64,000 nt of DNA. It comes from Saccharomycopsis phalli. Its lineage: Eukaryota; Ascomycota; Saccharomycetes; Ascoideales; Saccharomycopsidaceae. This document shows, one piece after another, positions 591 to 33,862 of the stretch; within the stretch, counting starts at the first letter, position 1, and the number at the start of each line of letters is the position of its first letter. Below the pieces are notes generated by a model that did not search any database, was not told the origin of the DNA, and saw only the letters and a program-made list of their open reading frames with translations. The position numbers and the translations under genes are program-made. The stretch is from contig CP073218.1 in assembly GCA_020342235.1 (NCBI GenBank), forward strand, positions 1,240,001-1,304,000, read 5' to 3'.

Positions 591-3500
591 AGATAATTAT
601 CATTTGCATCAACATACAAAAGAAACTAGCAATGTTAGAAGGTACATTGAACCACTACAAGAACACATCGGCAATCATCATGGTACAAGAGCCCCCTTAC
701 CGTTTCGGGGAGTGGGGCCAAACAAACCTACGAGAAGCATATACCATGTTCGATCAAACAAACACACCTATCACTTCCCACTCCCCCAGAGACGACCAAG
801 ACGGAGACGATGTGAATCCGGCACCCACTCGCTCAAGAGTCGTCACCTACGTGAGTAACCACATCATTCAATCCACCTCACCAAAGTTCCACGTTCATCA
901 AATTCTTTCGCTATCCAATAGGGACATATTGGGCCTCAGAATATCATCACGAAAACTCACCTTTGAACTCATCAACATCTACAATGCACCCGTGGGCTCA
1001 GCACCCCACCTAAGATCAACGTCCCTCGAGACACTCCAATCCTATATCATATCTCTTGAAGGCCGGTTCAAAGGTATAATCATGGGTGATCTTAACGCAT
1101 GCCATCCCTCTTTTACCTCGCGTAGCGCTAGCACACGAGAGTCAAAAGCACACTCAGCAACAATAGAAGGTATTATCACAGCAGGAGGGCTCTCTTGCCT
1201 AAACGAATTCGATAAACCAACACACCAAGGAGGCAACACTCTTGATGTAGTGTTTGCTAGCGACTGTCTTTACAGGTATGTTTCGCCGCTGAAAAAGCTT
1301 CGCAAGTTCGGTTCAGATCATTTTGGAATACGTGTTAACGTGAGACAATCAGGTATCAAAACAAAGGGACCAGTAAGGTTAGTACCAGACTTTTCTAAGA
1401 CAGATTGGCCAGAGCTATGCGAAGAGCTCAACCACCATCGCCTTAGGCTCCTGATTAAATCGCCACAAAAGCTCAATAAGGTCACGAGCAGCTACACAAG
1501 AAGAATAGCATCCCTCCTTCTTAAGCACACTCCAGAGAAAAAAGTGTGTTACCGCTCTAAGAAATGGTTTACCCCCGAAGTCAGGGCCTCATTTGACAGG
1601 ATGCGTCACATGAATGCGGAGGACCCGTTAAGACATGAAGCTCAACAATCATTTATCAGGACAGTAAAGAAGGCGAAAGCGACCTGTTGGAACAGGTTCC
1701 TTGAGCAACTAGACCAGGCATCCATCTGGAAGGCCCTCAAGTACTCCGTACCTAGTGTCAACCACAAGATGGCATTACCGCATGACGACCAGGTGAAATT
1801 ATTCGGCGATACCTTTTACCCACAGATTTCTGTGGGTGAAAGCCTTTCCTCGAACACCTTCACCCCGCACAAAGTTGATAGCAACTCTATAAGCCCAATA
1901 ACCAAAGAGGAGATATATAACACTCTACGCTACTTGAAATTAAAGAAGGCCCCAGGGCCGGACAAAGTAACAGTGGGGCAAATCAGAGAACTATGGAAAG
2001 GATCCAATTTCCCGGACCAACTTGAAGCCATCTACAATGCATGCCTCTCCTTAGGCACGTGCCCGAACCAATGGAAGGAAAGTATCACAGTAGTGATCCC
2101 CAAACCGGGTAAACCTGATTACAACAAAGCCAAGGCTTATCGACCGATAAGTCTCTTGAATATCATGGGGAAAATCTTTGAATCAATCATGACGCAGCGT
2201 TTGGCAGCTACGATTAGACTACCGAACCAACAGTACGGAGGCCGGGCAGGATACTGTGCGACTGATGCTGTTATGAAACTCATCAACGATGCTGATATGC
2301 ACAGAAATAGACAAAAAAAGCGTGAACTACAACAGTACCAGAAGGGCATCAGCACCCCTCCATCACAGCACAAGCACATGGGTGCAGTGCTAGTCGATAT
2401 CAAAGGAGCTTTCAACAACATGAACCACCCCATCCTCTTGTCGAAGATGAAAGAAGTTGGGGCCCCGGGCGAGATAATCAATTGGACCAGCAGTTTCCTA
2501 ACCAATAGGAAAACAAAACTCCGGATCAACAACAAGCTCTCAGAGAAGTGGATACCAGTGACTTTCGGAGTGCCCCAGGGCTCACCGATCTCGCCTATCC
2601 TTTTCATGATCTATACTCACGACCTCTATAAGCGACTACGAGCCCATAGGGTCAAAGTAATCGGCTTCATCGATGACATAACCATATACAAGACAAGCGG
2701 ACAGCGGACAATCCAGAGGGCGCTCTCACAGAGCCTCAGCATATGCCACCAGTGGGCCCAAGAAAACCACACAGGCTTTGACTACGGGGAAAAATTACAA
2801 TACATCAGATTCTTTGCAAAATCACGCGGCTCAATTCTCCACCTTCCGGATGGAACAATAAAGGAAGAGTCCACAGAGGTGAAACTACTAGGGATATCCT
2901 TAGACTCAAAACTCAGTTTCAGACAGCACATTGGGAACACGACACTTCGTTTGAAGAGAACCACTGGACGGATACAGGCCATTAGTCGCATCACCAAGGG
3001 AACCCGAGGGAAGACCACGCTAATCTTATTTAAGACATGCGCGCTACCCCTCATCACATATGGACTAGAGATTTTCTACCATAAGTTAACCAAGACCCAG
3101 ATCGAAGCCATCAGAGTATGTTACAACATCTCATTGCGTAATGCACTTGGCATGTTGAAACCGACCCTGACCGGAATCCTCAATATCGAAGCAGGGATGC
3201 TTCCGATCCAACTTCTCCTAAAACGAGCCGCAATAGAAAAGTGTGTGAGATGGTTCACTAACACTAACCTGAAAAACCCCATACAAGAAAGCATCAATAA
3301 GCAAATAGTACTCGGGGCCACAAACCGGGACGCCTACTCATACCCTCTCATACGAGAATCCTTTGAAAGCCTTGGCATAAGTGCGCCATACCAAAGATCA
3401 TTTAAAGAAGCTGCATCAAATATAGATCATCATGCAGAAGTGTTAGTCCAAACCCATTCGGAACTGCCAGACAGTCAGAGTTCAGCCCTGCAGGGACGAA

Positions 3501-3961
3501 AGAAATGGGCCCTTAAAGACCAAATAAACACAAAGATGACCCAGGAATGGCAAAAACTAGTGGACACTGGCGAGATTACTCTCCCAGCCCACTATAGAAC
3601 TCTACGCGGAACGGATTCACCGGTGGTTACCACCGCTAAAGATAAACTCCTACTAGCCGAGGCCTTAGCTGGCCCAAAGAATATTTTGAGCCTGATAAGC
3701 CAACTTCTAAGTGGAAAAAGTTTGGTATCATGTACCATCAAGAAACAATTCAATCCTGAGTGTGATCCGAAGTGCCCTAGGTGCGACAATCCCTCCCCAA
3801 CAATATTCCATGACCTATCATGCCCATGTTTAGAGGTATTCAGAACTCAGGAAACAATCGGCGAAGGCCTCACAACCCGAGCGCAGATTCGCCGCCTCTT
3901 TACTGACGCAAAATCAATTCATTCTCTTATAGGTTTCTACACGTTAGTGCTGGATGGGTAG
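587..3961 (+). CDS. LINE copy 1 ORF2: APE endonuclease-reverse transcriptase
   Basis: The 1124-residue protein nicks target DNA and copies the element RNA onto it. Residues ~1-240 are an exonuclease-endonuclease-phosphatase domain: I-N-I-Q-K-K near the start, V-Q-E-P-P, N-I-Y-N-A-P, G-D-L-N-A-C-H-P and G-S-D-H-F-G. Residues ~450-750 are the reverse transcriptase: K-K-A-P-G-P-D, V-V-I-P-K-P-G-K, D-I-K-G-A-F-N-N-M, F-G-V-P-Q-G-S-P-I-S-P and G-F-I-D-D-I (the catalytic Asp pair). The C-terminus has a C-x2-C-x8-H-x3-C knuckle. No RNase H domain is visible between RT and knuckle. The RT motifs look like the Tad/I/R1/Jockey group, not L1. The start overlaps the ORF1 stop (ATGA), suggesting coupled translation. 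The frame is complete. Confidence 0.93.
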   Translation: MKIIIICINIQKKLAMLEGTLNHYKNTSAIIMVQEPPYRFGEWGQTNLREAYTMFDQTNTPITSHSPRDDQDGDDVNPAPTRSRVVTYVSNHIIQSTSPKFHVHQILSLSNRDILGLRISSRKLTFELINIYNAPVGSAPHLRSTSLETLQSYIISLEGRFKGIIMGDLNACHPSFTSRSASTRESKAHSATIEGIITAGGLSCLNEFDKPTHQGGNTLDVVFASDCLYRYVSPLKKLRKFGSDHFGIRVNVRQSGIKTKGPVRLVPDFSKTDWPELCEELNHHRLRLLIKSPQKLNKVTSSYTRRIASLLLKHTPEKKVCYRSKKWFTPEVRASFDRMRHMNAEDPLRHEAQQSFIRTVKKAKATCWNRFLEQLDQASIWKALKYSVPSVNHKMALPHDDQVKLFGDTFYPQISVGESLSSNTFTPHKVDSNSISPITKEEIYNTLRYLKLKKAPGPDKVTVGQIRELWKGSNFPDQLEAIYNACLSLGTCPNQWKESITVVIPKPGKPDYNKAKAYRPISLLNIMGKIFESIMTQRLAATIRLPNQQYGGRAGYCATDAVMKLINDADMHRNRQKKRELQQYQKGISTPPSQHKHMGAVLVDIKGAFNNMNHPILLSKMKEVGAPGEIINWTSSFLTNRKTKLRINNKLSEKWIPVTFGVPQGSPISPILFMIYTHDLYKRLRAHRVKVIGFIDDITIYKTSGQRTIQRALSQSLSICHQWAQENHTGFDYGEKLQYIRFFAKSRGSILHLPDGTIKEESTEVKLLGISLDSKLSFRQHIGNTTLRLKRTTGRIQAISRITKGTRGKTTLILFKTCALPLITYGLEIFYHKLTKTQIEAIRVCYNISLRNALGMLKPTLTGILNIEAGMLPIQLLLKRAAIEKCVRWFTNTNLKNPIQESINKQIVLGATNRDAYSYPLIRESFESLGISAPYQRSFKEAASNIDHHAEVLVQTHSELPDSQSSALQGRKKWALKDQINTKMTQEWQKLVDTGEITLPAHYRTLRGTDSPVVTTAKDKLLLAEALAGPKNILSLISQLLSGKSLVSCTIKKQFNPECDPKCPRCDNPSPTIFHDLSCPCLEVFRTQETIGEGLTTRAQIRRLFTDAKSIHSLIGFYTLVLDG

Positions 3962-4135
3962 ATTCCTTTTTCTTTTTACAGCACCACAAGAAGGGCGGCC
4001 GGGCAGGTAGTCCCCCCCGGGGGGCGAGACTCCATAGCTCTTTCTGAGTCATCTCTCTTCAACAGTTCCTTAAAGATCAAGTCGAAAGTTTTTATCCCCA
4101 TTCAAAGGGTTTTCTCTCGACTCCAAAATTAGCGG

Positions 4136-4161
4136 CGCCGTCCTTAGTTTTTTAGACGGTG
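4136..4161 (+). other. 3' UTR stem-loop of LINE copy 1
   Basis: CGCCGTC at 4136-4142 pairs with GACGGTG at 4155-4161 (seven pairs, one G-U) around a T-rich loop, 62 bp before the (ATT)n tail. The same stem recurs in the SINEs with matched base changes. It is a candidate recognition structure for the reverse transcriptase. Confidence 0.7.
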
Positions 4162-4223
4162 AAATATCAATCTCACCCTCCGGGGGAGCCTAGTATAGCT
4201 ATAGAAGTAAATAAACATTATTA

Positions 4224-4504
4224 TTATTATTATTCTATATGGTGGTGATGTTCCATTGTCTTGCGTCTGGTGGAGACATCAGGGTCCTTTTTAGGACGGT
4301 CTAGACCTTCTTTATCCTTAATGGGGAAAAGTATGTCTGAATCTTGATGTACGTAACTCAAAGACGTATCTTCACAAGGCCTAGACCTTGTTCCAGAGAG
4401 AACGGTCTTCTTCATGTTGTTCATTGCATGTTGTACGAATTCACGTGCCATTCACGTGTACCTTCTATGCTCCAAAGGAGGGGTACCAGGGATTGCCCGT
4501 TACA
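4224..4504. other. spacer without recognised feature
   Basis: This stretch lies between the LINE copy 1 tail and a SINE copy. I recognise no gene or repeat family in it. It contains a short near-repeat of 'ggtctagacctt' / 'ggcctagacctt' and a TATG run near 4505. Confidence 0.4.
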
Positions 4505-4767
4505 TGTATGTATGTATTATTTTATTGTATTGTATTATTTTATTCAAGGCTATAGCTATACTTCAGCTCCAGAGAGATTGATACTTCACCATCCAAGACT
4601 ATGGATGGCGCTGCTATATATGTTGCTCAGAGAAAAACCCTTCAAAATGGGTAGAGAAACTCCAAGCGGGATTTTTTAGTAGTTGTGCTGATAATTTGTA
4701 GGTGGGGCAGGCTGTGAGCTTTCGCCTCAGGTTCTAGCACGGAACCTGCCGTAGGGTTGTCACTAAG
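4505..4767 (-). mobile_element. SINE copy, 5'-truncated (head missing)
   Basis: Read on the minus strand, the body matches the SINE at 20771-21075 through the LINE-derived part. It includes the stem CGCCATCC/GGATGGTG (plus-strand 4587-4594 and 4603-4610) and the terminal AGTATAGCTATAGCC segment followed by an A/T tail. The similarity stops at about 4767, just where the tRNA-like head should begin, and an LTR relic starts there. The copy has therefore lost its Pol III promoter, by 5' truncation or by the later LTR insertion. Confidence 0.8.
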
Positions 4768-4774
4768 TGTCGAT

Positions 4775-6421: not shown

Positions 6422-6702
6422 TTATTATTAATATTTATTTAAGGCTATAGCTATACTAGGCTCCCAGGGGAGATTTATACTTCGCCGTCTATGACTAAGG
6501 ACGGTGCTGCTATATAGTCGTCGAAAGAAAACTCTGCGACAGAGATAAAAAACTTTCGACCAGAGCTTGTAAATATGTAAGGTAATGAGCATTGGAGGGG
6601 CAATGAGTTTTTCGCCTAGATCTTTGGAGGTAACTTTAGCCACCCCCTCCCCAAGGTACTAATTCGGTAGCCCTCCTAACGTGCTGTAACAAAAAGAGAA
6701 AG

Positions 6703-9700
6703 CTACCGGTCCAGCACCGACGAGTAGAATTCTATAAGATTTTTAAGCTTCGCCTTATCTGAGAAGAGGATGCGAGCTTGAGTAGCGTTGGTAATTCCTT
6801 CAGGAATCTGTGCTTGGGCACGAGAGTCCAATAGTATCGGGCATGAGAAATCGTGAAAAATAGATGGTGCAGCATCCTCACATCGGCTGCATGATGGGCT
6901 CGCTTCGGCATTGAATAAAGTCTTAGTTTTATGTGAGACTAGGCTTTGGCCGCTAAGGAGTTGACTGATTTTGCTTAGTGCTCGTTTGGGCCCAACTAGT
7001 GCTTCTGAAAGTAGTAATGTTGACTTTTCAGTAGTAACTTGAATTGGACCTCGGCGTAGCGTTGTGTAATGAGTCGGTAGTCGGATTTCATTGGAGTCAA
7101 TGAGTTCTTGCCATTCCTTGGTTACTTTTTTCCTAGTAGCTTCTTTTAAAACAGAAATTTTTCTTTGTTTCAGCGGGGCCATTTGTTGTGTGGCAGTTTC
7201 CAGTTCAGTCTGATCTTGAATTAGTTGCTCCGCCCTCTGATTGATTCTTGAGGAGACGTCTTCAAAGGATCGCTGGTAGGGAATGCTGATGTTGAGGGCC
7301 GCGAGTGTCTCTTTGATGAGGGGATACGCGTGGAGTTCATTGTTTGCGACGCCTGATTTAATCTGCGTGTCTATGCTCTTTTGTATGGGGTTGCTGGGAT
7401 TGGTATTAGTGAACCATCTGGTGCACTTGTCAATAGCAATTCGTTTGAGTAGAAGTGATAGTGGAAGAGAGCCTGACTCAATGTTGAGGATGCCAATTGC
7501 AGTTGGTCTTAGCATGCCCAAGGCCAGTCGTAGAGCAGTGTTGTGACATACCTGTATCTTGTTCCTCTGACTCTTGTTGAGCTTGAAGTAGAAGATCTCT
7601 AGTCCGTAGGATATTATCGGGAGCGTGCATGTTTTGAACAAAGTGAGCGTAGTAGTTCCTCTTGTGCCATGTGTAACGCGACTGAGTGTTTTAATATGCT
7701 CTGTCACTTTTTTGGCGCGGGTAATCGTAGACTTGATGTGTTCTGTGAATCGTAGTCGTTTGTCTAGAGTGATTCCCAATAGTTTGACCACCTCCGATTC
7801 GTCTTTCGTCTGTCCATTTGGAAGGCGTAGGACCGAGCCGGTGGTGTTGGGGTGGAAGCGAATGTATTGTAGCTTTTTGCCATAGTCGAAACTAGTGTGG
7901 TTTTCTCGTGCCCATTGGTGGCAGATCCGTAGGCTCTCCGAGAGGGCCTTCTGGATCGTCTTCTGTTTGCCATGCTTGAAGATAGTAATGTCATCAATGA
8001 ATCCTATTACTTGTACTCCATTGTCCGTGAGTCGCTTGTAGAGGTCGTGTGTGTAGATCATGAAAAGGATGGGCGAGATGGGCGAGCCTTGCGGCACTCC
8101 GAACGTTACTGGAATCCACGATTCCGTGAGTTCATTATTGATTCGGAGCTTAGTCTTCCGGTTAGTTAGGAAGCTGCTGGTCCAGTTGATTATTTCAGGA
8201 GGAGCTCCTACCTGTTTCATTTTGGCTAGGAGTATGGGGTGATTCATGTTGTTGAAGGCACCTTCGATGTCTACCAATACTGCCCCAGAGTGGCGGTGTT
8301 GGGATGGTAAGGTGCGGATTCCTGCTGTTAACCCACGATGTTCTCTGACTTTTTGAACTTGTTTGTACCGTGACACTTCGTTGACTAGTGACATGACCGC
8401 GTCTGTAGCGCAGTACCCTGCTCTGCCCCCAAATTGTCCGTTTGGTAGCTTAATTGTTGCTGCAAGGCGCTGAGTCATGATTGATTCGTAGATTTTTCCC
8501 ATTATGTTCAAGAGACTGATTGGCCTGTACGCCTTTGCCACGTTATAGTCTGGTTTTCCCGGCTTGGGGATCACCACTGTGATGCTTTCCTTCCACTGGT
8601 CTGGGCAGATGCCTAGCATTAGGCACGCATTGAAAATAGCTTCCATTTGGTTCGGAAATGTGTTTCCTTTCCATAGTTCCCGAATCTGTCCCACTGATAT
8701 TTGGTCGGGCCCAGGGGCCTTTTTTAGCTTTAAGTAACGAAAGGAATTGTATATCTCCTCTTTTGTAATCAGGTTGATAGTGTCAGGCGGGACTTCGTGT
8801 AGTGTGAACGTGTTCCGTGAGAGTTCTTCCCCTACAGAGATCTGTGGGTAGAAGGTTTCACTAAAGAGCTGAGTTTGTTCGTTATGCAGCTTGGACATCT
8901 TGTGGGTGATGCGGGGGGTGGAGTATTTGAACGCGGTCCAAATGGTAGAGGAGTCTAAGGATTCAAGAAACGAGTTCCAGCAATCCGCCTTTGCTCTCGC
9001 AAGAATCTTTGTGAATTCCTCTAAGGCGTTCCGTCTCTGCGGGTCATTCATTGTCATTTTCCTCATTCTGTCAAATGCGCCTTTTACCTCTGGGGTGAAC
9101 CATCTCTTTGACAGATAACTAACTTTTTTCCTTGGCGTGTGGTCAGCTATAAGCTTCTGGATTCGTTTTGTGAACGAGTTGGTGACCTTGTTGAGAGCCT
9201 GGGGGGACCGGAGTTGAAGCTTCGGCCCTTTGCGGTCTAGCTCTTCGAGTACTTTCAGCCAGTCAGTTTTGGAGTAATTAGGAAGCAGTAGGAAGGGGCC
9301 TGGACCCCTAGTGCCCGAAGTTTTTATATTGACCCTAAGGCCGTAATGATCGGATCCAAACTGCATAAGTTTCGTCAGGGAACTTACCTTCCGAGATAGT
9401 GAGGGACTTGCAAGAATGACGTCTAACGTGTTGCCTCTTTGATGTGTAGGTTTATCATATTCATTAAGGCAGGAGAGATCTCCGAGCTCAATGATGGCGT
9501 CAATAGCAGCAGTGTCAGAAGTAGCACGTTGGCCCGGTATGATCCGGGAGGTAAAAGATGGGTGTGAAGCATTTAGGTCGCCCATGATGACCCCTTTAAA
9601 GCGGCCGCCGCAGGAGACGAGATGATGCTGGAGAGTCTCAAGGGACTCTGATAGGAGGTGTGCCGCGGATGTTGCCGGGGCGTTGTAGATGTTGATGAGA

Positions 9701-10080
9701 TCGATGGAGAGTCGTCTGGATGTGATCTTGATACCTATTATATCTCCTCCCCGTAGTGTATCGATGTGGTCAATCCGGAACTTTGGTGATGTTGATTTTA
9801 TGATGTGGTTGCTGACATAGGTTACAACTCTGGGACGGACAGGGGGTGCTCCATTTGGAGCCGACTCCGTAAGCGCCTCATTTGCTGTGGATGATGATTG
9901 AGATTCGGGGACGTCGAACATAGTGAAGGCTTGTCCTAGATTTGTGAGGCCCCATGCACCGTGACGGTATGGAGGCTCTTGAACCATGATAATAGCCTTT
10001 GAATTTTTGTAGTGATTAAGTGTTGCTTCGAGAATTGATAGTTTCTTTTGTATGTTAATGGAGATGACTAATATCTTCAT
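6703..10080 (-). CDS. LINE copy 2 ORF2: APE endonuclease-reverse transcriptase
   Basis: The 1125-residue protein aligns end to end with ORF2 of copy 1 and is its nearest relative here. Endonuclease motifs: V-Q-E-P-P-Y-R, N-I-Y-N-A-P, G-D-L-N-A-S-H-P-S-F-T-S and G-S-D-H-Y-G-L-R. RT motifs: K-K-A-P-G-P-D, I-P-K-P-G-K, D-I-E-G-A-F-N-N-M, F-G-V-P-Q-G-S-P-I-S-P and G-F-I-D-D-I. The C-terminal knuckle is C-x2-C-x8-H-x3-C. It acts as the nicking and target-primed copying enzyme. No RNase H is seen. Translation probably depends on re-initiation at the ATGA shared with the ORF1 stop (10077-10080). All catalytic-looking residues of both domains appear present. Confidence 0.95.
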   Translation of the reverse strand: MKILVISINIQKKLSILEATLNHYKNSKAIIMVQEPPYRHGAWGLTNLGQAFTMFDVPESQSSSTANEALTESAPNGAPPVRPRVVTYVSNHIIKSTSPKFRIDHIDTLRGGDIIGIKITSRRLSIDLINIYNAPATSAAHLLSESLETLQHHLVSCGGRFKGVIMGDLNASHPSFTSRIIPGQRATSDTAAIDAIIELGDLSCLNEYDKPTHQRGNTLDVILASPSLSRKVSSLTKLMQFGSDHYGLRVNIKTSGTRGPGPFLLLPNYSKTDWLKVLEELDRKGPKLQLRSPQALNKVTNSFTKRIQKLIADHTPRKKVSYLSKRWFTPEVKGAFDRMRKMTMNDPQRRNALEEFTKILARAKADCWNSFLESLDSSTIWTAFKYSTPRITHKMSKLHNEQTQLFSETFYPQISVGEELSRNTFTLHEVPPDTINLITKEEIYNSFRYLKLKKAPGPDQISVGQIRELWKGNTFPNQMEAIFNACLMLGICPDQWKESITVVIPKPGKPDYNVAKAYRPISLLNIMGKIYESIMTQRLAATIKLPNGQFGGRAGYCATDAVMSLVNEVSRYKQVQKVREHRGLTAGIRTLPSQHRHSGAVLVDIEGAFNNMNHPILLAKMKQVGAPPEIINWTSSFLTNRKTKLRINNELTESWIPVTFGVPQGSPISPILFMIYTHDLYKRLTDNGVQVIGFIDDITIFKHGKQKTIQKALSESLRICHQWARENHTSFDYGKKLQYIRFHPNTTGSVLRLPNGQTKDESEVVKLLGITLDKRLRFTEHIKSTITRAKKVTEHIKTLSRVTHGTRGTTTLTLFKTCTLPIISYGLEIFYFKLNKSQRNKIQVCHNTALRLALGMLRPTAIGILNIESGSLPLSLLLKRIAIDKCTRWFTNTNPSNPIQKSIDTQIKSGVANNELHAYPLIKETLAALNISIPYQRSFEDVSSRINQRAEQLIQDQTELETATQQMAPLKQRKISVLKEATRKKVTKEWQELIDSNEIRLPTHYTTLRRGPIQVTTEKSTLLLSEALVGPKRALSKISQLLSGQSLVSHKTKTLFNAEASPSCSRCEDAAPSIFHDFSCPILLDSRAQAQIPEGITNATQARILFSDKAKLKNLIEFYSSVLDR

Positions 10081-11825
10081 TTTAATTGCCGGCGACCAGA
10101 CTTGGAGGCTCCACTCTGGTAGGTTTTGGCTAGACTTATTCTGGGACGGAGTTTCCGGGCTTTACTCTCAATCTCTTTTGCAATTCTTTCTGCCTTGATT
10201 GCTTTCCGGCTGGCAGTGGCTTCGTTTGTTGATGGAGTCGAGTCTTTGTCATTTTCCTGAGAGAGCTCCTCTTCCTGCTCCTCTTCTGGGCCTGACTGGA
10301 GCTCTGATTCTTCATCCATGTTGTCGTCCAGGTATGTATCGTCTTCCTCCTGATCATCTTGTGGGACATAGTCCGGGTCCATGTCCTCGGATTCGTCGTC
10401 GTCGTTGTCTTGGTGGGCCAAGGTGTCGTCCTCAGGGGTGTTGTCCTTGGCTTGGGTTTCAGGTACCTTCTCGCTACCTGGAGTAGCTGATGGTGGGGTG
10501 GTGGCTCGAGGCTGGGCCTCCAGTGGTGGACTTTTCATTTGAGATTGACTGCGTGTGACTCTCCCGCTATGTTGGCTTGTGATTGGCTCATTTGGCGGGC
10601 TCATGTGTTGCCGTTTTCTTGGATTAGACCGCTCTCTCGTGGCGTACACTGGGATGGGTGTAAATCCGTTAAGGTAGAAACTTTGCTTGGTGAAGAAGGT
10701 TGCAGTGTCTTCATTTGGAAAGAAGACCTTGGCACAGTAAGCTTTTTCGTTATCTTCTGAGATATTGTCCCAGTCAATGTGGACATCTCGTTTGATGAGA
10801 GCTCGTGGAGGGGCGGAGAAGAGTGGGTCATCCCATTCTAGTTTTTTGACTTCCTTTATGAAGAAAGCTTCAAGGGCGGCTGGTGAGACTTTGAGGGGGA
10901 TGTTCCCCACGACGCGCGTGGCCCAAGGGCTCGGGTCGAAAAATCCCGGTGATTCAAAGATGGAGAGAACAGTATTCTTTGCCTCCATGCTCAATGGCTC
11001 GGAGACGTGAATTCTGATCTGTTTGGAGCGTGTGAGAGTGACGCGGGTAGCCTGTGGAATCTGTTCGCGAAAGGTGTTGACTTGCTTGACTTGTTGGTCC
11101 CTTTCAGCTTGACAAGATGGGTTTGGATTCGGGTTCTGAATGTAGAAGAGTTTCCCTTGAGCGTACAACTCCCTTCCGTCAATACGGTAAGGTGAATTAG
11201 GGCGCCCCCTATGGGTTGGACGAGTTGACGGTGGATTGCTTCTCATGCCCCGGGCGGCTGCTTGAGAGTAGCTAGTGCTTTTGGTGGATCTGAATTCAGC
11301 CTTTAGCTCCCGGATCTCATTCATTAGAGTGCTGTAGGCCTGTTTGTTTTCTTGTGCATCTTTGTCAAGGCGATCGATGCGCTCTGTGGTTGATTTTTGC
11401 CAAGGTAGTGTTGGTTGTTTAGAGCAGAGCTCCTCCATAATGCTGTTGGTGGTAGTAATCCAAGTGCGGATGAATTCTGGGATGTCTTCGGTAAGTGGAG
11501 GAAGAGGGATTCTCCGTGCGAGCGCTTTCTCAAACGGCAGCGGTAAATGGGATGTCGGCCAGACGGAATTGGATGTCGGTGAGGGGTACTCTGTCCCGTG
11601 TTGGGCAGCGGAGCTGCTCTCAGGGGCAAAGTTAGGGGATTGGTGCGATGCAGTTGCATCTGACCATGGTTCCTGGATTGGCCGCCGCGGCGAGCCTGGG
11701 CTTTTTTCAATCATCCTGGGCGGATCTCCTGGGAAATCTGCTGATGATTGATGAACCGAGGGGGCCAAAGGCCCCTCGGATACTTCGCTTTCAGAAACGT
11801 GATTCCTGTATGCAAAATTTTCCAT
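10077..11825 (-). CDS. LINE copy 2 ORF1 protein (RNA-binding, probable)
   Basis: The protein has 582 residues. The N-terminal ~100 are Ser/Pro-rich and disordered-looking. A coiled-coil-like stretch (residues ~130-195) carries S-T-L-M-N-E-I-R-E-L-K-A-E-F. A globular core (~residues 215-395) may hold an RRM-like fold (W-A-T-R-V-V-G-N-I-P, then the A-P-P-R-A-L-I segment). The tail is very acidic (runs of Asp/Glu, ~residues 455-535) and ends basic. LINE ORF1 proteins coat the element RNA; this role is inferred from position and layout. There are no CCHC knuckles, unlike ORF1 of many Tad or Jockey elements. The ATG lies 3 nt from the element's 5' end. Confidence 0.88.
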   Translation of the reverse strand: MENFAYRNHVSESEVSEGPLAPSVHQSSADFPGDPPRMIEKSPGSPRRPIQEPWSDATASHQSPNFAPESSSAAQHGTEYPSPTSNSVWPTSHLPLPFEKALARRIPLPPLTEDIPEFIRTWITTTNSIMEELCSKQPTLPWQKSTTERIDRLDKDAQENKQAYSTLMNEIRELKAEFRSTKSTSYSQAAARGMRSNPPSTRPTHRGRPNSPYRIDGRELYAQGKLFYIQNPNPNPSCQAERDQQVKQVNTFREQIPQATRVTLTRSKQIRIHVSEPLSMEAKNTVLSIFESPGFFDPSPWATRVVGNIPLKVSPAALEAFFIKEVKKLEWDDPLFSAPPRALIKRDVHIDWDNISEDNEKAYCAKVFFPNEDTATFFTKQSFYLNGFTPIPVYATRERSNPRKRQHMSPPNEPITSQHSGRVTRSQSQMKSPPLEAQPRATTPPSATPGSEKVPETQAKDNTPEDDTLAHQDNDDDESEDMDPDYVPQDDQEEDDTYLDDNMDEESELQSGPEEEQEEELSQENDKDSTPSTNEATASRKAIKAERIAKEIESKARKLRPRISLAKTYQSGASKSGRRQLK

Positions 11826-11828
11826 TTT

Positions 11829-12088: not shown

Positions 12089-12163
12089 TAATAATAATAT
12101 TTATTTTTGTATTTAGCTATATATTGTCTCCGGCAATACGGTGATTCGACAGATATATTTTCA

Positions 12164-12180
12164 CTCAGGAACATCCTGAG
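12164..12180 (-). other. 3' UTR hairpin of LINE copy 3
   Basis: CTCAGGA pairs with TCCTGAG over a 3-nt loop. The hairpin is kept unchanged in the broken relative at 61352-61368, where the surrounding sequence has drifted. It may be the counterpart of the stem-loop in copies 1 and 2. Confidence 0.6.
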
Positions 12181-12339
12181 GCAGCATTGCTGTTGAAGAA
12201 AACCCTTTGTCAACCCTCATTTGGTTGCTTGGGATTAAAAACTTCAGTGGGGGCAGTTATATTGTTGGTGCTTGGTGCTTGTATGGATTGTGTAAGAAGC
12301 CTGGTCACTCTTGTTGTCGAATGTGACCGCTGAATCTCA

Positions 12340-15300
12340 TCATGTGTTGGAGGAATCATATTCCAACACGTTCTGGTAGAACTCAAGGAGTTTGTGGACT
12401 GATTTTTGGTCGGCAAACACTTTTCCAAGCGTATTGCGTATGCCATGAGTGGAATCTAGTATGTCATCAATGCGCGATAGAATTCGAGCTTCTAGGAGCT
12501 CTGGGCATCGTAGGTCATGTATGATGGAGGGGGAGTGAGTCCCACATCGTTTGCACTTTGGGTCATCATTGCCAAATAATTTGAGCAACGATCCGTCTGT
12601 GAGGCTCTTTCCGCTGAGTAGTTGTGATGCCAAACTGAGGATTGCCTTGGGGCCTGCAAGTGCTTCCGTGAGGAGGAGCTTGGTTTTGTCTCGGTGCACT
12701 TTGAAAGGAGTGGTGCTGATTTTGCGTGCGTTCCTATAGTGGTTTGGGAATGATTCGCTGGTTGAGGTGATCATTGCTTGCCACTCTTTGGTTGCTGCGT
12801 CTGAGGCTATTTTCTTGAGCATCTGGATGCGGGTCCGTCTTGGATCTTGCATCGGTGGCGGGTCGTCCTCGAGTCGTTGTTCCTCTAGTGCATAATCCGC
12901 GCGTTGTTCAAGTAATCGAGCGGCTGCGTCAAACGTTCTGATATCTGGATTGTGAGGGGCTGTTGCCTGTAACATGTCCTGGATAAGAGGGCGCTTTGGA
13001 ATTATGATTCTCGTGCTTCCATTGATCGTGGCAGTTTGGAACAAACTTGAGCGGACTGGGTTTTGGCGTGATGTATTCATGAACCATCTCATAGATTTCA
13101 TTATTGCCAAGGACTTGAGTAGGATCGTTGGTGGTGGAATACCACTTTCGATATAGATGATCGGGGTGGACGTGGGTCTGAGGAGGCCTAGCGCCAGTCG
13201 TAGGATTGAGTTGAATATCACACTGACCTGACCCCATTGGGTTTTTGTCATGCTGTTATAGAACACCTCGAGTCCATACGATATGATGGGGACTGCGCAC
13301 GTTTTGAACAATATTATCGTGGTACGTCCCGTGGTTCCTCGTGTCATTCGGCTTAAGTACCTTATTTGTTCAGCAGTACGGCGCATCTTGGACAATGTTT
13401 GTTTTAGATGGCTCCTGAAGCTGAGTCTTGAATCAAGGGTAATGCCTAATAACTTGACCTCGTTTGTTTCCTCCTTTCGTCCTCCGTTCGGAAGTTGGAG
13501 GCTAGATTCACAGTTCGGTAACCGTCTTCGATTCGGGAAGAATCGTATGTATTGTAGTTTCGGGCCATAGTCAAAGCTTGTGAAATTCTCTTGACCCCAT
13601 TGATGGCATTCCTGTAAGCATCGTTGAAGTGTATGCTCAATGTCGCCTCGGGATCCCGTTTTGACAATTGTAATGTCATCAATGAATCCTAAAGCCACAG
13701 CCCCTTTCCGCTCAAGCCGGTTGTAGAGGTCGTGGGTGTAGATCATGAAGAGGATTGGAGAGATTGGAGAGCCTTGTGGGACACCGAACGTAACGGGGAG
13801 GTGCTGGTCTGATAACTGTCCATCAATTTTTAGCTGAGTGCTTCGGTTCTGGAGGAAGTTATTAGTCCAATTAATTATCTCGGGTGGAGCGCCGACGGCC
13901 TGCATCTTTTGTAGTAGGATCGGGTGGCTCATGTTGTTGAAGGCACCTTCAATGTCGACTAGGACTGCTCCGGAGTGGCTGGAGTTGTCTAGTGGCATTT
14001 TCTGGTTGTCCTTGAGGTGAGTCTGGGCGTGGACCTTGAGGTTATTTACTAAGGTTGTAACCGCATCCGTTGCGCAGTACCCTTTGCGCCCCCCAAATTG
14101 GTAAGATGGAAGTTGGATTTTGGCAACCAATCTTTGGGTCATGATTGACTCGAAGATTTTCCCAAGTATATTGAGTAAGCTAATTGGTCGAAATGATTTT
14201 GGTGTCTCGTAATTGGCCTTTCCCGGTTTCGGGATTACTACCGTGATGCTGGTTTTCCACTGTTTGGGGAATGCTCCAAGTTTGAGGCACGCGTTGTAGA
14301 TCAATTCCAACTGGTCAGGGAAGGTTTTCCCATGCCAAAGCTCCCTGATTTGACCAACGGTGAGCTGGTCAGGACCTGGAGCTTTTTTGAGCTTTAGGTA
14401 TCTGATGGTGTTGAATATTTCCTCCTTCGTTATTGGTTCGATGTCGTCCCAATGAGTGTTGTGCGGTTGGAACGAAGCTGGCGTGAGGCTCTCACCTACA
14501 GTGATCTGTGGGTAAAAGGTTTTGCCAAAGGCTTCGTGTTGTTCCTCGTACAGTTTCATCATTCTATGGCGCTTTGCTGGGTTTGTGTATCTGTAAGCAG
14601 TCCAGATGGTGGTGTGGTCCAACTTGAGTAAGAAATCATTCCAGCACTTGGATTTGGCTTTTTGAACAGTTTCCTGAAAGGCCTTCTGAGCATTGCTTCG
14701 TTCTGGATTGTCCATTGCGAGGCTTGTGACAGTTCTATACGCGTCTTTGACTTCTTGAGTGAACCACCTTTTTGAGCGGCTATTTACTAGTTTCATCGGG
14801 GTGTTTCTGTCAATTAGTTGCCTTAGACTCTGGGTTAACTTGGCGGATGCCTTGTTTAGTTCATCCTCTGTGTGGATGGCGCTTGCGAACCGACGTTTAT
14901 CTAGTGTTGCACGTACCTTTGACCAGTCCGTTTTAGAGTAGTTATGCACCGTTTTTGGCTTGATCTTGTTCGACATGTCGGGAGGGCGGAGTGATACGCG
15001 AAGACCGAAGTGGTCGGAGCCGAATTGCCGAAGCTTTGGCTGTGGTGTCACTTGCCCTTCCAACTTATCGCTGATTAGTATAACATCAAGAGTGTTACCG
15101 TCACGGTGTGTGGGCTGGTCGATGATGTTAAGGCATTGGAGTTTCCCCATTTCCATGATGTCATCGATCCTCAGTGTGGCCTTCCGTGCTTCCACCCCTG
15201 CTATGTTGCGAGAGGTAAAGGCTGGGTGGGCTGCATTGAGGTCGCCCATGATAATTCCATTGAAAATTCCTTGTTTGTCTATAATGTAGTTTCTTACTAG

Positions 15301-15693
15301 TTTTAGCGACCGGGACTTGAGGTGGGCCTTGGAATCGTGCGGCGCATTGTAGATGTTGATGATGTCTACAACTTGCTTTCGTGATTCTAAGGTGATTCCC
15401 ACACAGTCTCTATCTTTTAATTCATTGATATACCTTGTGCGGTAGCCATATTGTTGATCTTTAATTTTCTTGTTAACATATGTCGTGGCCCTAGGTCGGG
15501 CTGACTGGTCGTTTACCTCAGGGAGGTAATCATATTTGTCATAGGCGGCGTGGTTGCAAGTCTCATCGGGGTTGCACTGACGTGCAGTCTCCTGGACTAA
15601 TAGTATTACTGCCGAATTCTTGTAATGGTCAAGGACCGCTTCTAGATGCGGCCTTCGTTTCTGGATGTTGATCGAGATGATTGTTATCTTCAT
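12340..15693 (-). CDS. LINE copy 3 ORF2: APE endonuclease-reverse transcriptase
   Basis: The 1117-residue protein has the same domain order as ORF2 of copies 1 and 2 but is clearly more distant. Endonuclease motifs: I-I-S-I-N-I-Q-K-R, L-V-Q-E, N-I-Y-N-A-P, G-D-L-N-A-A-H-P-A-F-T-S-R and G-S-D-H-F-G-L-R. RT motifs: K-K-A-P-G-P-D, I-P-K-P-G-K, S-F-R-P-I-S-L-L-N, D-I-E-G-A-F-N-N-M, F-G-V-P-Q-G-S-P-I-S-P and G-F-I-D-D-I. The C-terminal knuckle is C-K-R-C then H-D-L-R-C. No RNase H domain is visible. The ATG (15693-15691) overlaps the ORF1 TGA (15692-15690). Confidence 0.95.
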   Translation of the reverse strand: MKITIISINIQKRRPHLEAVLDHYKNSAVILLVQETARQCNPDETCNHAAYDKYDYLPEVNDQSARPRATTYVNKKIKDQQYGYRTRYINELKDRDCVGITLESRKQVVDIINIYNAPHDSKAHLKSRSLKLVRNYIIDKQGIFNGIIMGDLNAAHPAFTSRNIAGVEARKATLRIDDIMEMGKLQCLNIIDQPTHRDGNTLDVILISDKLEGQVTPQPKLRQFGSDHFGLRVSLRPPDMSNKIKPKTVHNYSKTDWSKVRATLDKRRFASAIHTEDELNKASAKLTQSLRQLIDRNTPMKLVNSRSKRWFTQEVKDAYRTVTSLAMDNPERSNAQKAFQETVQKAKSKCWNDFLLKLDHTTIWTAYRYTNPAKRHRMMKLYEEQHEAFGKTFYPQITVGESLTPASFQPHNTHWDDIEPITKEEIFNTIRYLKLKKAPGPDQLTVGQIRELWHGKTFPDQLELIYNACLKLGAFPKQWKTSITVVIPKPGKANYETPKSFRPISLLNILGKIFESIMTQRLVAKIQLPSYQFGGRKGYCATDAVTTLVNNLKVHAQTHLKDNQKMPLDNSSHSGAVLVDIEGAFNNMSHPILLQKMQAVGAPPEIINWTNNFLQNRSTQLKIDGQLSDQHLPVTFGVPQGSPISPILFMIYTHDLYNRLERKGAVALGFIDDITIVKTGSRGDIEHTLQRCLQECHQWGQENFTSFDYGPKLQYIRFFPNRRRLPNCESSLQLPNGGRKEETNEVKLLGITLDSRLSFRSHLKQTLSKMRRTAEQIRYLSRMTRGTTGRTTIILFKTCAVPIISYGLEVFYNSMTKTQWGQVSVIFNSILRLALGLLRPTSTPIIYIESGIPPPTILLKSLAIMKSMRWFMNTSRQNPVRSSLFQTATINGSTRIIIPKRPLIQDMLQATAPHNPDIRTFDAAARLLEQRADYALEEQRLEDDPPPMQDPRRTRIQMLKKIASDAATKEWQAMITSTSESFPNHYRNARKISTTPFKVHRDKTKLLLTEALAGPKAILSLASQLLSGKSLTDGSLLKLFGNDDPKCKRCGTHSPSIIHDLRCPELLEARILSRIDDILDSTHGIRNTLGKVFADQKSVHKLLEFYQNVLEYDSSNT

Positions 15694-17147
15694 TGTGATC
15701 CAACTTGGCTTGAGTCACTGTGGGAAACCATCTGAGTTCGACTTGACCGTAGATTATATCTTGATGTCGAGTTCTCATCAGGAGCTGGGTAAGTCTCCGT
15801 CGTATTGATCACTAGATCTTTTGGGATCTTGGGTTGACTGGAGGGGTTACTCGTGGCGTTTGGGTTTCCCGGTGTGCCGCTTTGTGCGGTGGAAGCAGGA
15901 GGGATGGAAGATGGTTGGCTCGTTTTTGACTTGGAGCCGCGGCTTCGGCGTGGCCGTCGCGGTGACTCTTTGAGGAGGTCAAGGTGAGTCCGTTTCCGGA
16001 TGTTGCGCTTTCCCTTGTACTCGGTTAGTCTGTGGATTTCTCCTTCGATGCAGTAGCGTTGTTCTGACGCGAATTGCGCTGTTGCCTCGTCCGGGAAGAA
16101 TAACCGAGCTGAGTAGCGTTTTGTGCATTCGATAGGGATTGTGGACCAATCCGGCATGTTTTCTGGGCTAATGAGTGGTCTTGGTGCGGAACACAAGGCT
16201 TCTCCTTCCCACTGCGCATTTCTTAAGGTTCTCGAAATTTCGAGTGCGACGTTGTCGGGGGAGAAGGTTGCTGGGACGTTTTGGATTACCCGTGAGACCC
16301 ATGGTTTTGTGTTGAGTGGTCCTGGTGATCCGAGCGCAGATTGGAGTGTCAACTTGTTTTCGTCGGTGAAGGGTTCGTTTAGGTGGACCCGGAAGTGGTG
16401 CGCCGCGGTGAGGCTGATCATGCTGATCTTGCATGCCGACTGGTCAATAATGGCTTTGGACTCAACTTCGAATTGGATGCGTTTTGCAGCACTCCATGTT
16501 CGACTTTGAGGATTAACGTAATACGCTAATCTGCCAGCTGTTTCAAGGTCTTTGCCAGTTGGTCTTTGCTCCCTGGTTTTGGTTCTGGTTGCAGTGTGGC
16601 CACGTTTTGATGAGGTGGCCGGGGGTGCGAGGAATGCATGTTGGGTTTGTAGAAATTGAATGGCTTCCTCCTGTCCAGCTTGGCGGAGGAAGGTGGTTGA
16701 ATCAAGTTTGTAAAACCGGGCGGCCCCAGAGATTGCGTTAGTGAGTACTCCGTAGGCCTGTATAGCGTCACGAGCCCTGTCCTCAAATGTGTAATTTGAG
16801 TTCCCGCTTTGGGAGGGGTGGTTAGTTTCATAAGGTTGGATAAGCTTTTCTTCGACGTTTTGTCGGTTCCAAGTTTGTGGGGGTGGCGAGATGGCACCCG
16901 GTGGGGTGTTGTATCCGCTTGTTTCGTGTTCTGAGGGGTCGGTTTCGTCCTCCTCGGTGAGGCCATAGGATTTTTTAATTTGGCCGTTGGTGTGTGTTGC
17001 TGGTGCCCTGGCGGCACTTGGGTCAATTTGAAGTTGGTTAATAGATTCGCCGTGGGAATCCATGCGGTTTGCTGTTGTTTGGGGCCCTAATGGGTCGCCC
17101 GGGGGTTCAAACTCATTTTGTGTTTCACCAATTTGGGAAGAACTCAT
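15690..17147 (-). CDS. LINE copy 3 ORF1 protein (RNA-binding, probable)
   Basis: The protein has 485 residues. Its N-terminus is polar and Pro-rich. The globular middle (~residues 190-380) aligns loosely with ORF1 of copies 1 and 2: W-V-S-R-V-I-Q-N-V-P, then C-S-A-P-R-P-L-I, then Y-S-A-R-L-F-F-P. A basic R-R-P-R-R-S-R-G patch and Ser/Thr/Pro tail follow. It lacks the long acidic tail of the copy 2 protein and has no CCHC knuckle. The role in coating element RNA is inferred. The ATG lies 6 nt from the element end, so almost no 5' UTR exists. Confidence 0.87.
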   Translation of the reverse strand: MSSSQIGETQNEFEPPGDPLGPQTTANRMDSHGESINQLQIDPSAARAPATHTNGQIKKSYGLTEEDETDPSEHETSGYNTPPGAISPPPQTWNRQNVEEKLIQPYETNHPSQSGNSNYTFEDRARDAIQAYGVLTNAISGAARFYKLDSTTFLRQAGQEEAIQFLQTQHAFLAPPATSSKRGHTATRTKTREQRPTGKDLETAGRLAYYVNPQSRTWSAAKRIQFEVESKAIIDQSACKISMISLTAAHHFRVHLNEPFTDENKLTLQSALGSPGPLNTKPWVSRVIQNVPATFSPDNVALEISRTLRNAQWEGEALCSAPRPLISPENMPDWSTIPIECTKRYSARLFFPDEATAQFASEQRYCIEGEIHRLTEYKGKRNIRKRTHLDLLKESPRRPRRSRGSKSKTSQPSSIPPASTAQSGTPGNPNATSNPSSQPKIPKDLVINTTETYPAPDENSTSRYNLRSSRTQMVSHSDSSQVGSQ

Positions 17148-17153
17148 TTTTCC

Positions 17154-17217
17154 AGTGCCGTACTAAAGACATCAGTTTAACTTTTATTAGCTGTAATGAC
17201 CAGAATCAAACTATGGA
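17154..17217 (+). repeat. duplicated segment, arm 1, last part (5'-side target duplication of LINE copy 3 at 17154-17166)
   Basis: The stretch after the duplication, 17167-17217, is identical by eye to 19261-19311. After that the arms differ. Confidence 0.88.
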
Positions 17218-19631: not shown

Positions 19632-20712
19632 TTTGCTTCCACCCAAATAACACCGGATTGGTCCTCTGCCTTCCAAATGGACAGACGAAAGACGAATCGG
19701 AGGTGGTCAAACTATTGGGAATTACTCTAGACAAACGACTACCATTCACAAAACACATTAGGTCGATACTTTTGCGCGCCAAAAGATTGTTTGAGCAAAT
19801 CCATTCAGTCGCGTTACATGGCACAAGAGGAACCACTACGCTCACCTTGTTCAAAACATGCACGCTCCCAATAATATCCTACGGACTAGAGATCTTCTAC
19901 TTCAAGCTCAACAAGAGTCAGAGGAACAAGATACAGGTATGCCACAACATCGCTCTACGACTGGCCTTGGGCATGCTAAGACCTGTTGAAGATGTCGAAG
20001 ATCTGAGAGATTAAGGAGATCGTCCTGTTGAAGATCTGAGAGACTTGTTGAAGAAGTTAACTGACCTAATATTATTATGAGGCCGTACGGATAACAGTAT
20101 TATGAGACCGTACGGACAATGATCTCAGAAGCAGAAGGTAACTGAAGGCATCTCGGAAAAGAATATAAATAGGATAAGAAATAGCTAGTATAGTAACAAG
20201 AAGATGAATTATCTATAACAGTAGATATATATGCCATAAGGATCTGCTAGATTACGACAAGACCAACTGCGATTGGCATCCTCAACATTGAGTCAGGCTC
20301 TCTCCCACAATCACTTCTACTCAAACAGATTGCCATTGACAAGTGCATCAGATGGTTAACTAATATAAATCCCAATCCATTCAAAGGAGCATAGACACGT
20401 AGATTAAATCAGGAGTCGCAAGCAATGAACTTCATGCGTATCCCTCAACACCAGCATTCCCTACTAAAGATTATTTAAAGACGTTTTCTCAAAATTCAGC
20501 CAGCAAGCGAAATAGTTAATTTAAAATCAGTCTGAACCTGACACGCTACAAACGTCCCCGCTGAAACAACGGAAAATATATGTCCTAAGCTACACAGAAA
20601 AAGATAACCAATAATGGCAAGAGCTCATTGACTCCAATGAGATCCGGCTCCGTCACATTACACACGACACAAGGCTCAATTCGAGTGACTTCTGAAAAGT
20701 CAATTACTACTG
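19632..20712 (+). pseudogene. broken LINE ORF2 fragment (copy 2 type), split by an LTR
   Basis: Translated plus-strand pieces match copy 2 ORF2: K-D-E-S-E-V-V-K-L-L-G-I-T-L-D-K-R-L, then T-C-T-L-P-I-I-S-Y-G-L-E-I-F-Y, up to L-G-M-L-R-P at 19983. After the LTR (19984-20259) the match resumes at 20265 with the next codons of the same protein and fades at about 20712, before the end of ORF2. Frameshifts and stops are frequent in the second half, so it is a dead copy, older than copies 1-3. It has no endonuclease part and no 3' UTR. Confidence 0.88.
19984..20259 (+). mobile_element. solo LTR, family B, inside the LINE fragment
   Basis: This 276-bp insertion has TGTTGA...ACGACA ends and a perfect 5-bp target duplication, AGACC (19979-19983 and 20260-20264). 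The intact LINE sequence reads straight across that site. It contains ATATAAATAGG, a TATA-like motif. It is a solo LTR of a Ty-type element, younger than the LINE fragment it splits. A relative of its 3' half lies at 29623-29722. Confidence 0.85.
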
Positions 20713-20759
20713 ACATCATACGAAGTATGATACAGGAAGATGGTCACGTGATAAGTGGA

Positions 20760-20770
20760 ATGGGCAACAT
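20760..20770 (+). repeat. target-site duplication of SINE copy 1 (partner 21076-21086)
   Basis: ATGGGCAACAT occurs immediately on both sides of the SINE (20760-20770 and 21076-21086). Confidence 0.85.
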
Positions 20771-21075
20771 TTGTATTATTTTATTTAAGGCTATAGCTAT
20801 ACTTCGGCTCCAGAGAGATTGATATTTCACCGTCTAAGACTAGGGACGGCGCCGCTATATATGTTGCTCAGAGAAAACCCTTCAAGTGGGTAGAAAAACT
20901 CCAAGCGGGATTTTAGTAGTTGTGCTGGTAATTTGTGTATGGGGCAGGCTGTGAGTTTTCGCCGCGGGTACTAGCACAGTAGCCTGCTGTAGGGTTGTCA
21001 CTAAGCATCGAATTGAACCCATGACGGTGCCTTCCTATCAGGCGGGATGAACAACTGCGCCAAACGTGACAACCC
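20771..21075 (-). mobile_element. SINE copy 1: tRNA-like head fused to LINE 3' UTR
   Basis: The element is 305 bp on the minus strand with an 11-bp target duplication. The first ~75 bp (plus-strand 21000-21075) start GGGTTGTCACG and carry Pol III A and B boxes at tRNA spacing. GTTGTCA near the start can pair with TGACAAC further on, like an acceptor stem. The remaining ~230 bp match LINE 3' UTRs: GGCGAAAACTCA recalls copy 2, the stem-loop (20828-20834/20845-20851) and AGTATAGCTATAG recall copies 1 and 2. It ends in an A/T-rich tail. It has no protein-coding capacity and presumably moves with the LINE enzyme. Confidence 0.88.
21009..21062 (-). promoter_or_regulatory. Pol III A box and B box of SINE copy 1
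   Basis: The A box TGGCGCAGTTG is the minus strand of 21052-21062. The B box GGTTCAATTCG is the minus strand of 21009-21019. Consensus matches are good and the 32-nt spacing is that of a tRNA without a long variable arm. Confidence 0.8.
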
Positions 21076-21299
21076 ATGGGCAACATGGGAAGCATGGACG
21101 CCCATCCATGATGATGCATAGTATGACACCGCCATCATCTAGTGGACACGTATATGTGAGAGATGTAGGTATAAAGATGGTAGTTTAGACTTGAGGATCT
21201 TTAGTTCAAAATATATATAATTTACGTTTGTAAGATAGCCTGGCACTTCCGCTACTACGACGTATCTTATTGAGCTCGCTACTACTATTACTTATTATT

Positions 21300-21590
21300 T
21301 ATTTATTATTACTAGTGCGGAGTCCCCATCAGAGAAGAGACTACACTAAGTACGTCAATTGACAATATCTTCATTGCTCTACTTGAAACTTCGTGTTCTT
21401 TGTTATTTTTCTTTTTACTTGCTCTTTGACCCAATTTCCTAATCAAAGGCGATGGTCTAGCCAAGTCCATTCGCTTCGACTAAAGAATGTGCCTTACTTT
21501 CTCCAGATATAAATAGCCAGACTATTTGAATAGTTGAGCGAATATATTTTAGCTATTGACGTACATACTACGTATGTGCCGAATAATCTT
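21300..21590 (-). mobile_element. LTR relic, family C (inverted copy)
   Basis: The minus strand matches 30620-30850: AATATATTCGCT, then CTGGCTATTTATATCTGGA (TATA-like), then ACATTCTTTAGTC and GGGTCAAAGAGCAAG. It is a broken fragment of an LTR family also seen at 34395 and at the right window edge. Confidence 0.55.
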
Positions 21591-22004: not shown

Positions 22005-22088
22005 AACATTTAAACGCTTTTCAGCTACTTCATGGATCTCACAGAGTATAAATTTTTGCTGGTTTAGTGCAGCAAAAATAATTGTTCA

Positions 22089-22356
22089 TTATTCGTAAGG
22101 TTCTATAGCTATACTAGGCTCATTTGTTCTGAGATTGATATTTCACCGTTGATTTGTAAACGGCGCCGCTATGTGTGTGTGGTCTGCCGCAAGAAAACCC
22201 TTAAATGGGTAGAAAAACTCCCGGCGGGGGTGCTTGGTAAATGGGTCAGAGTGCATGCCCTAATAGTGGGCATTGGGCTGCCACGCGGCCGGATTGAACC
22301 CGTAGCGAAGGGGTCTCCGTTCAAAGTTACCAACTGGGCCATACATGACAACCCCG
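22089..22356 (-). mobile_element. SINE copy 2 with tRNA-like head
   Basis: The minus-strand element is about 268 bp. The head (plus-strand ~22275-22356) starts GGGGTTGTCATG and has an A box (TGGCCCAGTTG, 22331-22341) and a B box (GGTTCAATCCG, 22290-22300). GTTGTCA can pair with TGGCAGC as a 7-bp acceptor-like stem. The body shares the LINE-derived tail: stem CGCCGTT/AACGGTG (plus-strand 22144-22150 and 22159-22165) and the CTATAGAACC terminus. It is well diverged from copy 1, so it is older or another subfamily. I found no clear target duplication. Confidence 0.82.
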
Positions 22357-26415: not shown

Positions 26416-26518
26416 GTTACAGTGGCCGAGTGGTTAAGGCGATGCCCTGCTAATAGTTTGAGCTTTAGTTGATAGGCATTGGGTTTTACCTGCGCAGGTT
26501 CGAATCCTGTCTGTGACG
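26416..26518 (+). tRNA. tRNA-Ser(GCU) with a 21-nt intron
   Basis: The acceptor stem GTTACAG (26416-26422) pairs with CTGTGAC (26511-26517) and G26518 is the discriminator. The A-box region TGGCCGAGTGG and B box GGTTCGAATCC are canonical. The anticodon stem ATGCC/GGCAT encloses a loop with GCT at 26449-26451. The intron is 26453-26473, one base 3' of the anticodon, the standard place. A long variable arm (TGGGTTTTACC) fits serine. It decodes AGC/AGU, so it is not the tRNA that reads CUG. Confidence 0.94.
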
Positions 26519-33857: not shown

Positions 33858-33862
33858 AGCTT

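Follow-up and report, generated by a model that had tools for sequence, protein, structure and literature searches.

Whether a budding yeast genome can sustain a SINE that spreads at the expense of a LINE is the question raised by a 305-bp element in Saccharomycopsis phalli. SINEs, the textbook example of one parasite exploiting another, have been investigated chiefly in the genomes of animals, plants, and filamentous fungi. To our knowledge, LINE-tailed SINEs are not known from budding yeasts. The element lies in a 64,000-nt stretch of DNA, the whole of which was analyzed and is called the window here. We consider it very probable that the element and its relatives, termed family A, are SINEs: noncoding retroposons with a Pol III type-2 promoter in the head and a 3′ end of ∼155 bp that imitates the ends of resident two-ORF LINEs.

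The borders of the element are unambiguous. The same 11-bp word, ATGGGCAACAT, is present at both of them with exactly 305 bp in between, and the element ends in an A/T-rich tail, as a sequence-only reading of the window had described. That reading had also placed the two Pol III boxes, A and B, within the element at the spacing usual in tRNAs, and both were found in full agreement with the consensus, with starts 43 nt apart (table 1). On the minus strand, the element consists of a head (positions 1–84), ∼60 bp of unrelated sequence, the LINE-type 3′ end of ∼155 bp, and the A/T-rich tail. The body had been described as matching the 3′ UTR of LINEs. This holds for the last ∼155 bp but not for positions ∼85–140, for which no LINE match was found among the loci examined.

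Table 1. Coordinates of features in the window
Feature	Position	Strand	Remarks
LINE_A, ORF2 and 3′ end	542..4232	+	3′ 160 bp 89% identical to family C tail
5′-truncated family A copy with long A/T tail	4505..4773	-	starts at element position 65
LINE_B, two open ORFs	6422..11828	-	14-bp duplication, 6408-6421 / 11829-11842
LINE_C, two open ORFs	12089..17153	-	13-bp duplication, 12076-12088 / 17154-17166
Repeat read as solo LTR, ∼333 bp, split by SINE	20711..21359	.	joined flanks align as one block to other copies
Target-site duplication, 3′ side of element	20760..20770		ATGGGCAACAT on + strand
Family A SINE, full-length, 305 bp	20771..21075	-	5′ end at 21075
LINE-type 3′ end, ∼155 bp, including A/T tail	20771..20925	-	by alignment to LINE ends
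Pol III B box, GGTTCAATTC	21010..21019	-	starts 43 nt past A-box start; consensus match
Pol III A box, TGGCGCAGTTG	21052..21062	-	element position 14-24; consensus match
Target-site duplication, 5′ side of element	21076..21086		ATGGGCAACAT
Family B element	22074..22355	-	ends in ATTATTTTT; boxes A and B at 22331-22341 and 22291-22300
Old family A-like fragment	44892..45016	+	element positions 89-224, 73.5% identity
LINE 3′ tail, shared type	63656..63741	+	

Across both strands of the 64 kb, a full A box followed by a full B box at a spacing of 35–65 nt occurs in two places (20771–21075 and 22074–22355), against an expectation of 0.075 (mean of 40 dinucleotide shuffles). When the element itself was shuffled, a box pair was present in 4 of 20,000 sequences. 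The window also has a tRNA-Ser(GCT) gene with an intron at 26416–26518 on the plus strand, which the scan at 35–65 nt misses because its boxes are further apart. Five ORFs of at least 40 aa are listed at the element. One (46 aa) is wholly internal and four run across the borders, indicating that the element has no coding capacity. A T5 run is located at positions 178–182, and similar runs are present in the two other families described below. Such an internal run could end Pol III transcription early.

The surroundings of the element record its arrival. It interrupts a repeat for which scoring 40 of 83 candidates yielded at least 42 genomic matches, and the joined flanks of the window copy align as a single block of 334–337 columns to the copies at loci L015, L030, L088, and L018. 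We infer that this repeat is an LTR because three same-strand pairs of it are 5.5–5.6 kb apart. Removal of the SINE and one 11-bp duplication restores an LTR that is seen uninterrupted elsewhere. The corresponding empty site was recovered in 14 alignment rows that represent 11 distinct places, with 83–91% identity across the junction, and locus L015 retains the target word once. The window element is an insertion, a dispersed retroposon in a solo LTR.

Empty sites were found for 3 of the 19 insertions tested. In addition to the window copy, these are family A copy L006 (10 rows) and the 5′-truncated family C copy L101 (13 rows, six of which are 100% identical over 113–117 bp); one of the rows for L101 is within the window (23070–23182, 98%). 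For the other 16 insertions, none was found among the loci examined. Rows for L007 and for L103/L072 are self-overlaps.

Family A is dispersed throughout the genome. The whole element has at least 46 matches in 14.15 Mb, on seven of the eight contigs (40 of 266 candidates scored), and seven full-length copies (A01–A07) are 94.3–98.7% identical in pairwise comparisons. The head alone has 13 matches, every one of which falls within a match to the whole element. The sequence-only reading had staked its case on recurrence of the junction between head and body, and in nine of the 13 head matches the head is followed by the LINE-type tail; the search with head and element likewise returned many copies with variable duplications. 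The remaining four stop at positions 146–201. Three of these (C3:2133, C2:2180672, and C5:5347) have a subtelomeric flank in common and probably go back to a single insertion that was duplicated; the fourth is at C3:1678873. One family A copy (L007:1501–1836) has a head with internal duplications that amount to ∼30 bp. Within the window, a headless copy had been reported at 4505–4767. It is real, though it extends to 4773, is truncated at position 65, and is 89% identical to family A over 4530–4773. A flanking duplication was sought for this copy and none was found.

The comparison of flanking repeats covered 39 copies whose 3′ end is intact; 30 came from the search with family A, and nine belong to family C. 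Two of the 30, L053 and L057, proved to be ends of LINEs. Matches that end before position 290 or are weaker than E = 1e-30 were excluded from this set, as were L001, which is the window copy, and loci with other tails (L062, L065, and L069–L072). Exact repeats of at least 11 bp flank 16 of 39 copies, compared with 0 of 1,482 mismatched pairs of flanks; at a threshold of at least 8 bp, the counts are 21 of 39 and 48 of 1,482. No flanking repeat of 8 bp was found in 18 of the 39 copies. Duplications vary in length, from about 7 to 17 bp. Copies L043, L044, L046, L051, L058, and L101 are truncated at the 5′ end, have an intact 3′ end, and are flanked by a duplication, a combination that is the hallmark of target-primed reverse transcription. 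The A/T tail, the 5′ truncations, the empty sites, and duplications of variable length all point to target-primed insertion.

These features bear on whether the element might instead move as DNA. The 84-nt head is bounded by complementary ends of 10 bp, GGGTTGTCAC...GTGACAACCC, which could be taken for the inverted repeats of a DNA transposon or MITE. However, they delimit the head rather than the element, duplications are not of one length (7–17 bp), and 5′-truncated copies keep their 3′ ends and A/T tails. We regard a DNA transposon as so improbable that it can be set aside. The window element is a real LINE-tailed SINE, and LINE-type insertion is evidenced by the scars it has left.

Candidate partners are at hand. 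In each of the three LINEs of the window, ORF2 encodes an endonuclease and an RT domain. In LINE_B and LINE_C, ORF1 begins almost at the first base, leaving hardly any 5′ UTR. The 3′ 606 bp of LINE_C is found at 100% identity in 11 listed places, including the window, which indicates that the LINE machinery was recently active. The element had been said to ride on the LINEs resident in the window. Its tail is indeed of LINE type, but the closest partner is a decayed LINE, termed LINE_D, outside the window. Over 155 bp, the tail of family A is 90% identical to LINE_D copy L053 and 86% identical to LINE_D copy L057, versus 69–71% to LINE_B and LINE_A of the window, and we therefore rejected the window LINEs as closest partners. 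The LINE_D copies retain remnants of ORF2 (62 and 41 residues) that are ∼65% identical to LINE_C. No intact LINE_D was found in a search that covered part of the tails in the genome and in which only the two decayed copies were seen. The 3′ ends of both family A and family C are homologous to those of resident LINEs, the former to LINE_D and the latter to LINE_A-type ends (88–92%). Elsewhere in the window, a long ORF at 31203–33863 on the minus strand resembles, by eye and in its motifs, a remnant of a Ty1/copia pol gene.

Two loci have a higher match to the tail of family A (94% over ∼110 bp) but were not accepted as its partner because they are chimeras. In L062 (C1:1262351–1262459) and L065 (C1:1176938–1177044), the ORF2 of LINE_B is broken at about residue 971 and fused directly to a SINE-A-like tail. 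Template switching is perhaps how they arose. Chimeras of this kind, a 3′ half that is LINE-like, and the absence of the tail from four of the 13 head matches would each be compatible with an internally deleted LINE that retains the 5′ and 3′ ends of its parent, is transcribed by Pol II, and has boxes by chance. Yet the two full-length LINEs in the window start near ORF1 and their beginnings are unlike the head, families B and C also possess full boxes, on heads that differ, and no head match lies outside a match to the whole element. Such a half-LINE is very unlikely, and we retain the reading of family A as a SINE.

On this SINE reading, TFIIIC and Pol III would transcribe family A from its exact 5′ end. 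The endonuclease and RT of a LINE would then recognize the 3′ region common to SINE and LINE, and target-primed reverse transcription would start in the A/T tail, leaving duplications of about 9–17 bp and frequent 5′ truncations. The boxes suggest that Pol III transcribes family A, and the shared 3′ end suggests that the family may use a LINE enzyme.

The second box pair in the window belongs to a different family. The sequence at 22089–22356 had been interpreted as a diverged copy of the same element. Instead, it is part of a separate family, B, which resembles family A in just two stretches, 24 nt within the head (87.5% identity) and 144 nt within the tail (73.6%). Three full relatives (L106, L107, and L108) are 77–90% identical, for a total of four copies, and both boxes are full in three of them. 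All four terminate in the same ATTATTTTT, a run of T5–T6 that is a possible Pol III terminator. The longest flanking repeats are 5, 5, 9, and 6 bp, within the 4–9 bp seen for mismatched flanks. Either an old SINE or a gene for a Pol III RNA may underlie family B. LTR elements that target family B as a Pol III gene were considered and dropped, as the repeats beside two of its copies match the 3′ ends of LINEs.

Family B is also where a host gene is most plausible as the explanation for these elements, namely, a family of Pol III noncoding RNA genes duplicated by recombination. Its small number of copies (four), common T5–T6 run at the 3′ end, full boxes in three of four copies, and flanking repeats at the level of mismatched pairs speak for such genes. 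Families A and C, on the other hand, show duplications, empty sites, and 5′ truncations, and family B itself has the same LINE-type tail. We judge duplicated host genes to be a highly unlikely source and continue to treat family A as a SINE.

Family C is a third SINE family, located outside the window, which is very young and has the tail of LINE_A. It was discovered from near-identical matches to the tail that have upstream sequence in common. The element is 333 bp in length and has at least 10 copies plus one that is older (40 of 295 candidates scored). Four full-length copies are 99–100% identical to the query and a fifth is truncated at position 62. Young copies at 99–100% identity are at L100:6114–6446 (G000:C7:1229613–1229945), C5:1111572, C2:325864, C7:924099, and C6:1540384. 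Flanking repeats of at least 9 bp were found for seven of the nine copies examined. An A box, TGGCCGAATTG, is at position 14 and a B box, AGTTCGACTC, follows 50 nt later. The last 160 bp is 88–92% identical to 29 places that have the tail only (among the candidates scored), and ORF2 of LINE_A is upstream in all four of those examined (the window, L007/L101, L102, and L018/L094). The head of family C is unlike those of families A and B; therefore, heads of at least two kinds have become attached to LINE tails in this yeast.

The origin of the heads is less clear than that of the tails. Family A had been called tRNA-headed, and this is unproven. ARAGORN predicts no tRNA within the elements, and none of the three heads matches the Rfam models of tRNA, 5S rRNA, or SRP RNA up to E = 5; the last two results speak against a 5S- or 7SL-derived SINE. 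We compared the heads to 45 distinct tRNA sequences drawn from 87 ARAGORN predictions in overlapping loci, a partial set (63 of 806 candidates scored, with 20 stretches of the remainder added) in which several isotypes are missing. The head of family A scores best with tRNA-Ala, and 4 of 500 full shuffles reach that score against the 45 sequences, compared with 128 and 89 of 500 for the best scores of families B and C, respectively. Shuffles that keep the boxes reach the best score far more often (134, 374, and 245 of 500 for families A, B, and C, respectively), which suggests that the likeness of the heads to tRNAs is that of the boxes only. No parent tRNA was identified among the 45 sequences.

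Position 14 is where the A box begins in families A and C, and in family B as well if the first G is left uncounted. In a pre-tRNA with a 6-nt leader, the A box is at about position 14. The location of the A box is compatible with elements copied from complete Pol III RNAs by reverse transcription. Folding of the heads is slightly better than that of shuffled sequences, with z values of −2.4 and −2.6 for family A, −1.8 for family C, and −1.6 and −2.6 for family B, but the terminal stem has no covariation above the control. The folds of LINE and SINE tails are not clearly better than those of shuffles (z of 0.54 to −1.30). It is conceivable, though we think it rather unlikely, that the three heads, rather than being worn tRNAs, form a class of Pol III RNA of their own: a rod of ∼84 nt with an extended closing stem and an A box ∼13 nt from the 5′ end, joined at least twice (once for families A and B, and once for family C) to different local LINE 3′ ends. 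Family B, which ends in its own T run and has no convincing duplications, would then be the source or a descendant, in the form of a Pol III RNA gene of the host that gives birth to SINEs. If true, SINEs would have been born repeatedly within one 14-Mb yeast genome.

The host is a CUG-Ser yeast, as had been claimed; reading CUG as serine is supported by the CTG positions of the CHL1 gene in the window. In the 15 alignment columns at these positions, leucine is never the most frequent residue (at most 18 of 120 homologs), and two of the columns have serine in 115 and 105 of the homologs. The nearest named relative of CHL1 is from Saccharomycopsis crataegensis (50% identity), with other named matches up to 48% among the 120 listed. 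The mitochondrial RNA polymerase is 49% identical to that of S. crataegensis over 95% of its length, 39–40% to those of Candida species, and 41–42% to those of basidiomycetes over approximately two thirds. These matches make placement of the host in the Ascoideales likely.

Known systems resemble this one in part. Zorro elements are LINEs of Candida albicans, also a CUG-Ser yeast, and the LINEs reported here are alike in that respect. We know of no SINE partner of Zorro. UnaSINE1 and UnaL2 are a vertebrate SINE/LINE pair of the stringent type. In vertebrate stringent pairs, as in the yeast families, SINE and LINE have a common 3′ end, which is thought to be recognized by the RT, whereas such recognition is predicted here from sequence alone. 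Stringent LINEs in zebrafish are treated in the accessible part of PMC4176376. AfuSINE2-1a of Aspergillus fumigatus, a tRNA-related SINE of a filamentous fungus, is similar in structure: the available text of PMC5063351 reports a Pol III head, an end similar to the 3′ UTR of I-1_AF, a LINE of the same genome, and short target duplications. AfuSINE2 heads are assigned to tRNAs (PMC5063351), whereas none could be assigned here, and both the LINE and the subphylum differ.

Among budding yeasts, Yarrowia lipolytica is comparable in having LINEs (Ylli) and Pol III genes, some dimeric, in one genome. In the sections of PMC5014426 that were accessible, the authors speculate that LINEs could mobilize tDNAs, and Pol III RNAs becoming SINEs is raised solely as speculation. 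No SINE family is described there (PMC5014426), in contrast to the families found here, with their LINE tails, flanking duplications, and empty sites. A search for SINE families in Saccharomycotina, judged by titles and the openings of abstracts, found none in the open literature, a weak negative since that literature includes few of the subscription papers. A word search of the review PMC5499181 for SINE or retrotransposon returns only a species name, and the consulted portion of PMC6416283 names SINEs as a class only. The accessible text on the Saccharomycopsis schoenii genome (PMC13148404) treats LTR elements and leaves SINEs unmentioned. LINE, SINE, and LTR repeats are stated to be of generally low prevalence in lncRNAs of Candida, in the portion of PMC8677757 available, so repeat programs may have labeled some Candida sequence as SINE.

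A compact CUG-Ser genome in which SINE families occur alongside LINEs that amplified recently, and in which paralogous empty sites are available, would offer a small setting for study. It could serve to ask what leads a LINE enzyme to select its RNA, by what route new SINEs arise, and whether transcription by Pol III drives their spread. The SINEs of this yeast may fill a taxonomic gap in the Saccharomycotina.
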